Shown here: positions 14,228-61,172 of the stretch, piece after piece
Position numbering within the stretch: position 1 is the stretch's first letter
How the letters are laid out: each line of letters opens with the position of its first letter
NCBI RefSeq assembly: GCF_007559025.1
Contig: NZ_CP041765.1
Location: 554,679 to 618,678, forward strand
Source: Tomitella fengzijianii
GTDB taxonomy: Bacteria; Actinomycetota; Actinomycetes; Mycobacteriales; Mycobacteriaceae
Reading direction: 5' to 3'
Length of the DNA stretch: 64,000 nt
The notes under the pieces: model-generated
What the model was told of the DNA's origin: nothing
The model's database searches: none
Seen by the model: the letters and a program-made list of their open reading frames with translations, nothing else
Made by a program: the position numbers and the translations under genes

Positions 14228-14269
14228 CCGCCGCTGCGACGGGCAGCCGGCAGCGGTTAAGCTCGGACG

Positions 14270-14337
14270 CGGCGATGGATCTCCGCCGAGGCCGCGCATC
14301 GGCCTGAACCGCCCCGCCCGGGGCTGATGGCTCCTTC
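14270..14337 (+). promoter_or_regulatory. Fluoride riboswitch (crcB motif)
   Basis: The conserved elements occur in order: GGCGATGGATCTCCGCC at 14271-14287, a short hairpin, TGAACCGCC at about 14305-14313, and GGCTGATGGCTCCTT ending near 14336. These match the crcB-motif consensus (GGxGAUGG...CCGCC...AACCGC...GGCUGAUGxCUCCU). It lies 20 bp upstream of the first crcB start, which confirms the call. When bound to fluoride it turns on the exporter genes. Confidence 0.93.
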
Positions 14338-14356
14338 CCCCGTGGAAAGGAGACCT

Positions 14357-38373: not shown

Positions 38374-38379
38374 TAGCAT
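38374..38379 (+). promoter_or_regulatory. -10 box of 6C RNA
   Basis: TAGCAT lies 7 nt before the inferred RNA start; TTGCCG at 38349-38354 could be the -35, though the 19-bp spacer is long. Confidence 0.45.
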
Positions 38380-38385
38380 GAAGGC

Positions 38386-38470
38386 GCTCGGCCAAGCCGA
38401 GTGCCTTCAGCCCAACCCCCCGGGGCTGGACGCAACGGCCCCCACCCACTCCCCCCTGGTGGGGGCCGTT
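38386..38470 (+). ncRNA. 6C small RNA (B11 type)
   Basis: Two hairpins each display exactly six cytosines in the loop, the defining trait of actinobacterial 6C RNA. Hairpin A: CAGCCC/GGGCTG at 38408-38428 with loop AACCCCCCG. Hairpin B: 13-bp stem, 38434-38446 with 38458-38470, loop CACTCCCCCCT. A 5' stem (CTCGGC/GCCGAG, 38387-38401) precedes them. The locus between a SerB-like gene and ssd, on the ssd strand, is where M. tuberculosis encodes B11/6C. The C-loops are known there to pair with G-rich ribosome binding sites of many mRNAs. The 5' end is inferred from the -10 box. Confidence 0.9.
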
Positions 38471-38668
38471 CCATGTCGTGGGGCGGTTATGAGGTCTGCT
38501 CGAACCGCGCCCGCCCGGAGCCGCGTTTTCCACAGGCTCCGACTTTCCACAGGAATCTGCATAGGGCCTGTTCGGCGGTTGCCGGCCCGCCATCGCGGTG
38601 CGTGGGATGCGGAAACGTCGTAGTCGACGCGGAAGCACGTGGCCGGAAGCGGTCGGCAGGGGGGCGAG

Positions 38669-55703: not shown

Positions 55704-56918
55704 ATGGTGGTGAGTGCGGGGAGCGTGTTCGATCGGCTGGTGGGCCAGGACCGGGCTGTGGCGACGCTGGCGGCCGCGGCGTCCGCAGCGCGCGGTGCGG
55801 CGGGCGACGGCGGCACACCGTCGGGGATGACGCATTCCTGGCTCTTCACCGGTCCGCCGGGGTCGGGGCGGTCCATCGCCGCGCTGGCCTTCGCGGCCGC
55901 ACTGCAGTGCACGTCGGAGGGGGCTCCCGGATGCGGCGAGTGTTCCGCGTGCCGGACGGCCCTCGCGGGCACCCACGGCGATGTGCGCCGCGTGGTGCCG
56001 GAGGGGCTGAGCATCCCAGTCAAGGAGATGCGCGCCATCGTGCAGATTGCCAACCGCCGGCCCAGCGTGGGCCGCTGGCTCGTCGTGGTGGTCGAAGACG
56101 CGGACCGGCTCACCGAGGGCGCGTCGAACGCACTGCTCAAGGTGGTGGAGGAGCCGCCGGAGCGCACGGTGTTCCTGCTGTGCGCCCCGTCCACGGACCC
56201 GGGCGACGTGTCGGTGACGATCCGTTCCCGCTGTCGGCACGTTGGGCTGGTGCAGCCGCCCACAAGCGCGGTGGCGCAGGTCCTCCGGGAACGCGACGGG
56301 TTGGACGAGGCACAGTCGCAGTGGGCGGCGTCGGTGAGCGGTGGGCATGTGGGACGGGCCCGGTGGCTGGCGCGCGACGAGGCGGCACGCGCCCGGAGGC
56401 TGCAGGCCCTGCGGCTGCCCACTGCGGTGCTGCGGCCGGCCGGCGGCTACCTGCTGAGCAAGCAATTGGTGGACGCCGCCGAGGCCGAGGCCAAGGATGC
56501 CAACGCGGAGCGGGAAGCGAGGGAACTGGACGAGCTGCGCACCGCGTTGGGGGCCGGCGGCACGGGCAAGGGCACCGCAGGCACGATGCGCGGCACCGCC
56601 GGGCTGATCAAGGACCTGGAGAAGCAGCAGAAGACCCGGCGCACCCGGTCGCAGCGCGATGCGCTGGACCGTGCGCTGATGGACGTCGTGGGCCTGTACC
56701 GGGACGCATTGGCTGTGAGTATGGGCTCGTCAGTGCCGGCTCTGCATCCCGACCTGGCCGATGACGCCCGCACGATTGCGCGCGAGGCGCCGCGGCCGGG
56801 GTTGCTGCAGGCGGTCGAGTCGGTGCTCGAGTGCCGCGAGGCGCTGTCGTCGAACGTCAAGCCGCAGGTGGCGATGGACGCGATGATCGCGGGGCTCGAG
56901 GCGGCCACGCGGCGGTGA
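55704..56918 (+). CDS. holB: DNA polymerase III delta' subunit
   Basis: A 404-residue clamp-loader delta' subunit. It starts VFDRLVGQDRAVATL, has a modified Walker A GPPGSGRS (Arg replaces Lys, near residue 52) as expected for the non-hydrolysing subunit, a zinc module CGECSACRTALAGTHGDV (about 80) and NALLKVVEEPPERTVFLL (about 140) with the SRC motif SRCRHVGL. TATTGT ends 8 nt before the ATG, so it is probably leaderless; GTG codons 3 and 6 nt later are alternatives. It is Rv3644c-like and divergent from the cyclases. Confidence 0.93.
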   Translation: MVVSAGSVFDRLVGQDRAVATLAAAASAARGAAGDGGTPSGMTHSWLFTGPPGSGRSIAALAFAAALQCTSEGAPGCGECSACRTALAGTHGDVRRVVPEGLSIPVKEMRAIVQIANRRPSVGRWLVVVVEDADRLTEGASNALLKVVEEPPERTVFLLCAPSTDPGDVSVTIRSRCRHVGLVQPPTSAVAQVLRERDGLDEAQSQWAASVSGGHVGRARWLARDEAARARRLQALRLPTAVLRPAGGYLLSKQLVDAAEAEAKDANAEREARELDELRTALGAGGTGKGTAGTMRGTAGLIKDLEKQQKTRRTRSQRDALDRALMDVVGLYRDALAVSMGSSVPALHPDLADDARTIAREAPRPGLLQAVESVLECREALSSNVKPQVAMDAMIAGLEAATRR

Positions 56919-57028: not shown

Positions 57029-57104
57029 GCCACCTTAGCTCAGTCGGTAGAGCGATTCACTCGTAATGAATAGGTCACCGGTTCGATTCCGGTAGGTGGC
57101 TCCA
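57029..57104 (+). tRNA. tRNA-Thr (anticodon CGT)
   Basis: A full cloverleaf: acceptor arms GCCACCT/AGGTGGC, D arm TAGCTCAGTCGGTAGAGC, anticodon loop CTCGTAA in a TTCA/TGAA-type stem giving CGT, and T arm CCGGTTCGATTCCGG. The discriminator is U and CCA is encoded (57102-57104). A 22-bp terminator hairpin follows at once. Confidence 0.96.
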
Positions 57105-57149
57105 ACGCACCGGACCCCACCCCCCGAGGGGGGTGGGGTCCGGTGCGTT
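57104..57149 (+). terminator. Terminator of tRNA-Thr, 22-bp perfect stem
   Basis: Arms 57104-57125 and 57128-57149 are perfect complements separated by 2 nt. The stem has runs of six C and six G. It begins at the last base of the encoded CCA. Confidence 0.85.
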
Positions 57150-57235
57150 CGGCGCGCAGAACGAGGGCTGTGCCCCCGGTCAGGCCGGTGAAATCCGCGC
57201 TGCCGCGGCAGCGCGACGCGCGCCGGGGAATCGAC

Positions 57236-57265
57236 TTGGCACCCTGCGCGCGGTGCTGTTAGCCT
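57236..57265 (+). promoter_or_regulatory. Promoter of the C-loop RNA candidate
   Basis: TTGGCA (57236-57241, five of six bases of TTGACA) and TAGCCT (57260-57265) are spaced by 18 bp. Transcription would start near 57272. Confidence 0.55.
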
Positions 57266-57271
57266 GTGTAT

Positions 57272-57400
57272 TAGCGGCGGTTCGCGCCTACCCCCCCCTG
57301 GCGCACCCCGCTCTCGATTCCTTCCGCCACCTCCCCCCCGGCGGAAGGAATCCCGGCCCGTCCCGCCTCCACCCCCCGGATGGCGGGACGGGCCCCTTAC
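57272..57400 (+). ncRNA. Candidate small RNA with three C-rich loops (6C-like)
   Basis: Three consecutive hairpins expose C-runs. H1: GCGCC/GGCGC at 57284-57304, loop TACCCCCCCCT. H2: 13-bp perfect stem, 57316-57328 with 57340-57352, loop ACCTCCCCCCC. H3: 13-bp perfect stem, 57355-57367 with 57382-57394, loop with six C flanked by TCC/GGA. A CTTACTTT stretch follows. A good promoter lies just upstream and there is no coding frame. The design is that of 6C RNA, present elsewhere in this window, but with one more hairpin and unrelated stems. The function is inferred: pairing with G-rich ribosome binding sites. Confidence 0.75.
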
Positions 57401-57432
57401 TTTCCCGGCCTGCTAGGCGTCCGGCGTTACCG

Positions 57433-61172
<3,740 letters not shown>

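Follow-up and report, generated by a model that had tools for sequence, protein, structure and literature searches.

The locus downstream of tRNA-Thr in Tomitella fengzijianii raises the question of whether a row of C-rich hairpins found there is an RNA of its own and, if so, how it stands to the canonical 6C RNA (RF01066) of the same genome and to other C-loop RNAs. The features concerned are collected in Table 1, in coordinates of the window, that is the whole stretch of 64,000 nucleotides that was analysed, unless a locus is named. A sequence-only reading had described three hairpins with loops of eight, seven and six cytosines and two perfect 13-bp stems, and these are indeed present over the span 57273-57394. 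Three extra pairs are possible in H1 of the window species, and H3 is terminator-like as judged by eye. The minimum free energy of 57265-57412 is -81.4 kcal/mol compared to -51.7 ± 4.0 for shuffled sequences (z -7.5), none of the 200 shuffles being as stable. Spaced C runs were searched with the pattern C6-N22-48-C6-N22-48-C6, which matches three times in the window, the matches overlapping one another at this locus, and four times across the whole genome G000 (4.01 Mb); in shuffled windows the mean is 0.06, with at least three matches in 1 of 100 shuffles.

Table 1. Positions of the second RNA, its neighbours and the C-loop RNAs compared with it
Feature	Position	Strand	Basis or remark
holB (DNA polymerase III delta-prime), syntenic marker	55710..56918	+	Pfam PF13177, 120.6 bits
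tRNA-Thr(CGT), upstream, syntenic in Tomitella	57029..57104	+	
Long terminator-like hairpin after tRNA-Thr, separate from the RNA	57104..57149	+	by eye
-35-like TTGGCA	57236..57241	+	read from sequence
Extended -10 TG-T-TAGCCT, site TGTTAGCCT	57257..57265	+	TAGCCT 57260-57265, TG 57257-57258
Hairpin H1, loop with C8	57273..57312	+	outer 5 bp and inner 5 bp
Hairpin H2, loop ACCTCCCCCCC / ACCUCCCCCCC, C7	57316..57352	+	13 perfect bp
Hairpin H3, C6 loop	57355..57394	+	13 bp, then one-base bulge and 3 inner pairs
U-containing short tail CCUUACUUUC, probable 3' end	57395..57404	+	sequence
TAGCAT, -10-like site of canonical 6C	38374-38379		
Canonical 6C 5' hairpin, CAA loop, not C-rich	38384..38404	+	
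Canonical 6C RNA, two C-loop hairpins	38400..38474	+	RF01066, 66.5 bits
Nocardia-type second RNA	L252:2437-2509	+	also L247, L249, L256
Three-C-loop 6C loci	L213:3023-3131, L214:3066-3174, L215:3011-3118, L216:2905-3011		and 12 further loci

A TTGGCA-N18-TAGCCT promoter had also been proposed, and this claim stands in part. The letters are there with their 18-nt spacing and the extended -10 holds throughout, its region CTGTTAGC[C/G]T being invariant in all five Tomitella genomes. The -35 is partly kept, since TTGGCA is found also in G002 and G003 while TTCGCA stands in G001 and CTCGCG in G004, and the consensus promoter scan calls no sigma-70 site at the locus because TAGCCT agrees with TATAAT at only three positions. 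Transcription is predicted to start at about 57271-57273. The terminator scan likewise reports none at its threshold at this locus, H3 tail included. An open reading frame on the + strand (57133-58452) crosses the RNA; it is largely antisense to the gene of the Ig-like-domain protein, and no convincing coding frame is seen at the RNA, in agreement with the earlier claim.

The RNA follows holB and tRNA-Thr in all five Tomitella genomes, the window genome (G000) included. The custom three-hairpin model that had been suggested as a check finds every one of these copies, including that of G001, which was absent from the first covariance model and was recovered by it with 61.1 bits (E 1.4e-7). Stem covariation, the other check suggested, was followed in the five orthologs, with pair counts taken from model alignment A7. 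Paired states occupy 95.3% of 192 cells, and changes on both sides are seen in 11 of 39 pairs. None of 500 shuffles reaches the paired share, the both-side-change count or the covariation score, a comparison to be read with the caveat that related sequences can beat all shuffles without any structure; structures slid along the alignment have 0-2 such pairs. The sample is of five sequences, three of them close, and the alignment is fitted to the structure from the window sequence. By hairpin, the outer and inner helices of H1 are 100% paired in the five sequences with both-side changes in 3 of 10 pairs, compared to 6 of 13 in H2 and 2 of 16 in H3. The further-pair-types measure of covariation is not unusual, being reached in 87 of the 500 shuffles. 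On these aligned sequences, the stems are maintained by compensatory change.

While the stems vary across the genus, the loops remain C-rich (C5-C9; C6-C8 for H1). Indeed, the C runs of H1, H2 and H3 are 8/7/6 in G000, 7/7/6 in both G003 and G002, 7/7/9 in G001 and 6/6/5 in G004, and the orthologs fold with z values of -9.3 (G003), -9.2 (G002), -4.2 (G001) and -5.1 (G004). The CCUCC that had been pointed out in the H2 loop is present and kept, as ACCTCC in the DNA, in four of the five orthologs, the G001 loop being a plain C7. Only in H2 does CCUCC stand free of pairing; the sequence has one further CCUCC, most of which is within the H3 stem.

These observations bear on whether the locus is an RNA at all. 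The three hairpins could instead be a cluster of terminators between holB/tRNA-Thr and the convergent gene, with no RNA of their own and with C runs that are ordinary for terminator loops in GC-rich DNA. H3 and its tail do resemble a terminator, and the downstream neighbour in the window, a gene with bacterial Ig-like domains, is convergent. However, tRNA-Thr has its own terminator-like hairpin (Table 1), as do the four orthologs, where hairpins of other sequence were recognised by eye after tRNA-Thr. Furthermore, the three hairpins, their C-loops and the upstream extended -10 are all kept, and a conserved loop sequence is not needed by terminators. We consider such a cluster unlikely, the more so as the downstream genes of G001 and G004 run in the same direction as the RNA. 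In G001 this gene is csbD, which starts ~110 nt past the RNA, and in G004 it encodes a nucleotidyltransferase whose Pfam domain starts ~145 nt past it; the gene is taken to begin after the RNA, at the domain start, and a listed open frame of G004 (L067, 2800-4128) spans the RNA and enters the gene.

If the RNA were a leader acting in cis on the gene that follows it, co-directional neighbours such as these two would be expected, but that gene is not the same in the three lineages, and in the window it is encoded on the opposite strand, which makes a leader very improbable. Because the downstream gene differs among the three lineages the RNA looks free-standing, and this variability weighs against both a cis-leader and a terminator of one convergent gene. 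The reading that we favour, and hold to be likely, is that the locus encodes a free-standing trans-acting sRNA of ~125-135 nt, which would be a second 6C-like C-loop RNA, confined to Tomitella as far as the searched genomes show.

The relation of this sRNA to 6C was examined with covariance models in both directions. The canonical 6C RNA is where it had been expected, at 38.4 kb, so that the genome does carry two C-loop RNAs, the canonical 6C and, 18.9 kb from it, the second 6C-like RNA with three hairpins. Canonical 6C is above the cut-off in four of the five Tomitella genomes. In G004, which is 81% complete, there is none above the cut-off and the best match (24.7 bits) falls on the three-hairpin RNA; this corresponds either to missing sequence or to a real loss. 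G001 has an extra, weak 6C-like match of 37.5 bits, below the threshold, on the - strand (L255, G001:C90:151465-151533).

The RF01066 model, whose use had been suggested, does not place the second RNA in the family: it scores 44.5 bits against the curated gathering threshold of 47, and 45.5, 42.4 and 41.1 bits in three orthologs, with no match at E <= 1 in G001. Two consecutive loops of about six cytosines, as in RF01066, are found in H2 (C7) and H3 (C6), with the C8 of H1 in addition, and the position after tRNA-Thr is not the canonical 6C locus. The two-hairpin model settles on H2-H3 or, in G003, on H1-H2, as would be expected of three equivalent hairpins. Conversely, the Tomitella model gives 24.8 bits (E 0.0075) on the canonical 6C of the window. 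When the model is run as R2 on 77 loci, most of them 6C, the top score goes to a 6C with three C-loops (G318, 43.8 bits) and the next to one with two (G020, 40.7 bits), so that the model shows no special tie to the three-C-loop form and does not tell the two forms apart. The second RNA is thus termed 6C-like and is not an RF01066 member. Elsewhere in the window, at 14262-14343 (+), a fluoride riboswitch match scores 34.9 bits, just over its threshold of 34.

The range of the RNA was followed by position and by similarity. Thirty holB loci were compared, five from Tomitella and 25 from other genera, with tRNA-Thr recognised in 26 of the 30 and a fixed stretch taken for the rest. Three hairpins were found in none of the 25 other loci (24 genera; 500 nt inspected per locus), and isolated single C-loop hairpins occur at four of them. 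Among 80 named holB loci, model R1 matched only that of T. cavernea (L103), the species whose holB protein came up at 92% identity when the neighbouring holB proteins were searched in named genomes, and which is counted with G002 and not as an extra species, and none of the 79 non-Tomitella loci; the next-best hit is on the other strand at E 0.37, and a few of the loci end soon after holB. A blastn-type search of 301 family genomes matched 31 at E <= 0.01, of which the five Tomitella are clearly set apart; in the 26 remaining genomes the matches are short and C-rich (best E 1.5e-4). In 251 family genomes R1 found the five Tomitella and two weak matches. The latter are full-length matches to the Tomitella model in other genera, at G095:C4:399644-399766 (-) with 37.8 bits and at G162:C1:2395472-2395567 (-) with 36.7 bits. 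In 150 genomes of the order, R2 matched only G000; plasmids and phages gave no blastn match to the RNA. R1 and R2 ran with strict filters, 13-22 candidates being scored per genome, so that distant relatives may be missed; within this limited sensitivity, the second RNA appears Tomitella-specific as far as searched.

What such an RNA could do is best approached from 6C/B11, for which C-loop action is documented. In the H2 loop region stands CACCUCC, which we take to be the anti-SD letters of the 16S rRNA 3' end. According to the M. marinum study, the C-rich loop of the B11 terminator pairs with G-tracks adjacent to ribosome-binding sites, translation is impeded and mRNA decay is promoted, the loop that matters being that of the terminator (PMC12395582); in M. 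abscessus either C-loop is enough (PMC10470900). The Tomitella RNA has the working parts of 6C/B11 three times over, hence the same action is the best inference. A transcript would run from ~57271 to the end of H3, and its unpaired C-loops would pair with G-tracts at or beside ribosome-binding sites, so that translation might be blocked and the mRNA decay, as published for 6C/B11. The three similar loops may act redundantly or through added valency, and H2 with its CACCUCC would be the best fit to SD-type sites. By likeness of design an anti-SD action is plausible, and taken together the observation is real, the RNA being conserved in Tomitella and probably a trans-acting sRNA that would silence mRNAs at their ribosome-binding sites.

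The C-loops might also serve in a structural or protein-binding RNA and contact protein rather than mRNA. We know of no protein partner of such C-loops. The B11 report allows for a further core function, potentially through direct protein interaction (PMC12395582), but B11 loop mutants lose target repression in both studies (PMC12395582; PMC10470900). We find this alternative rather improbable.

In order to look for targets, the pattern GGGGGAGGT-N2-9-RTG, the complement of the H2 loop, was searched forward and reverse in the five genomes against a reversed-pattern control. Sites and controls number 5 and 4 in G000, 19 and 4 in G001, 8 and 5 in G002, 15 and 4 in G003 and 6 and 4 in G004. The sites hence exceed the control in every genome, markedly so in G001 and G003, and SD sites would do so too; furthermore, the H2 loop of G001 lacks CCUCC and its ratio is nevertheless 19/4, which argues against reading the excess as targeting. 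Targeting of one gene, presumably DUF3040-like, was considered, as the site before it is kept in four of the five Tomitella genomes; this candidate was rejected, because CCGGGGGAGG also precedes the gene in 12 of 25 loci of other genera and G004 is without the site. No target candidate is supported by the H2-complement search in the five Tomitella genomes, and C-loop target prediction is described as not accurate in the B11 paper (PMC12395582). The start region of the DUF3040-like gene, in the 30 nt that precede the start codon in L317-L346, is strikingly conserved, with GCCGGGGGAGGTACC followed by GTG in 9 of the 25 other-genus loci; 6C itself might act on this region, or the region might be no more than a strong SD.

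Three C-loops in a row are found in other families as well, on 6C itself. Among the C6-triple matches listed in 61 relatives, those lying 20-46 kb from holB in genomes G311, G314, G319 and G324 turned out to be 6C loci (58.7-66.9 bits) with an extra 5' hairpin whose loop is C6-C8. The survey that followed took in 65 of the 89 genomes in which 6C was matched, namely all 31 outside the window's own family (f1, which we take to be the Mycobacteriaceae by GTDB usage) and 34 of 58 inside, with canonical 6C defined as the best match of a genome and a 5' hairpin counted when its loop has at least five C. Such a hairpin is present in 16 of the 31 genomes outside f1 and in none of the 34 inside, where visual inspection of the sequence upstream of 6C suggests a hairpin whose loop is different, in line with the fold of the window's own 6C. 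By family, it is found in f4 (4/4), f5 (3/3), f10 (1/1), f12 (4/4) and f15 (4/4), compared to 0 of 15 in f6, f7, f8, f9, f11, f13 and f14, two of the 15 having weak C4 hairpins. RF01066 scores of the 16 range from 40.2 to 75.6 bits with two (G330, G339) below the threshold, and the model does not cover the third, 5' C-loop hairpin; alignment A8 of these 16 misaligns H1 between families.

A design with three hairpins had been thought to lack precedent, which does not hold in view of these 16 of 31 non-f1 6C RNAs and of the rhizobial alpha-r14 RNAs (PMC10746234). The term new anti-SD family is likewise too strong, because alpha-r14 has three anti-SD hairpins (PMC10746234) and 6C acts alike with two C-loops. 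For 6C, published work reports three stem-loops, two of them C-rich, in mycobacterial 6C/B11 (PMC12395582; PMC6582537) and a 27-nt 5' extension beyond the Rfam prediction in C. glutamicum (PMC4046766); within the literature searched, no account of a 6C RNA with a third C-loop was found. The Rfam 6C model could be lengthened on the 5' side.

Tentatively, the order might be seen as holding a superfamily of multi-hairpin C-loop RNAs. The ancestral 6C would have been three-looped, as 6C still is in five families, the window's family would have lost the first C-loop from its canonical copy, and a second copy would have been gained separately by Tomitella, with three loops, and by Nocardia, with two, loop number and C-run length being evolving settings of one G-tract-silencing system; we put this forward as a possible history and a rather doubtful one. 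6C is widespread in Actinobacteria and regulation by C-loops has been shown only recently. The three-loop RNA of Tomitella and the families with a third loop on 6C offer natural experiments on how many loops are needed and on whether paralogs divide targets.

Of the known systems, 6C resembles the Tomitella RNA in design. Both have consecutive stable hairpins with C6-type loops, the last one terminator-like, both window copies have a TAGCNT -10-like site, and the Tomitella model fits most of the 6C loci given to it, mostly over full length and with ~17-44 bits. In contrast to 6C, which is ~93-100 nt long, the second RNA is longer, stands at a different locus and has three C-loops instead of two. 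Three consecutive C-loop hairpins are shared with the 6C of f4, f5, f10, f12 and f15 (16 of 16), and the 19-nt CGCCTACCCCCCCCTGGCG of Tomitella H1 recurs in the last 6C hairpin of G339. These three-C-loop 6C RNAs are however at a separate locus in the eight genomes checked, 20-46 kb from holB in G303, G311, G314, G319, G322 and G324, 181 kb from it in G318 and on another contig in G304. Additional 6C copies are also reported for some mycobacteria, and on plasmids, in one study (PMC9569102).

An extra C-loop RNA beside canonical 6C, with a TAGGAT -10-like site, is found in Nocardia too. There, and in G017, a near-identical second C-loop RNA lies away from the 6C locus. It occurs in 22 of the 251 family genomes, those 22 belonging to two genera (one of them g22, assigned to Nocardia from the best blastn matches of a single holB locus). 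Ten second 6C matches were folded, of which four are of this type; the remaining six were assessed by visual inspection alone. Unlike the Tomitella RNA, the Nocardia-type RNA has two hairpins; in L252 it is flanked by adenylate cyclase and ABC transporter genes, and none of the five Tomitella genomes is matched by its DNA. Scr3202 (RF02833) and other Streptomyces C-loop sRNAs resemble the second RNA in their C-rich hairpin loops (PMC3765725), which the RF02833 alignment shows too, and RF02833 scores 35.8 bits on the window RNA against the 52 needed. Finally, alpha-r14, or NfeR1 'cuckoo' RNA (RF02344), is alike in having three hairpins with an anti-SD motif in each, which in these rhizobial RNAs is CCUCCUCCC (PMC10746234). 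It belongs to a different lineage, CCUCCUCCC is absent from the window RNA sequence, and RF02344 gives 20.5 bits on the window RNA and 23.7 on that of G004 against 58.8 needed.
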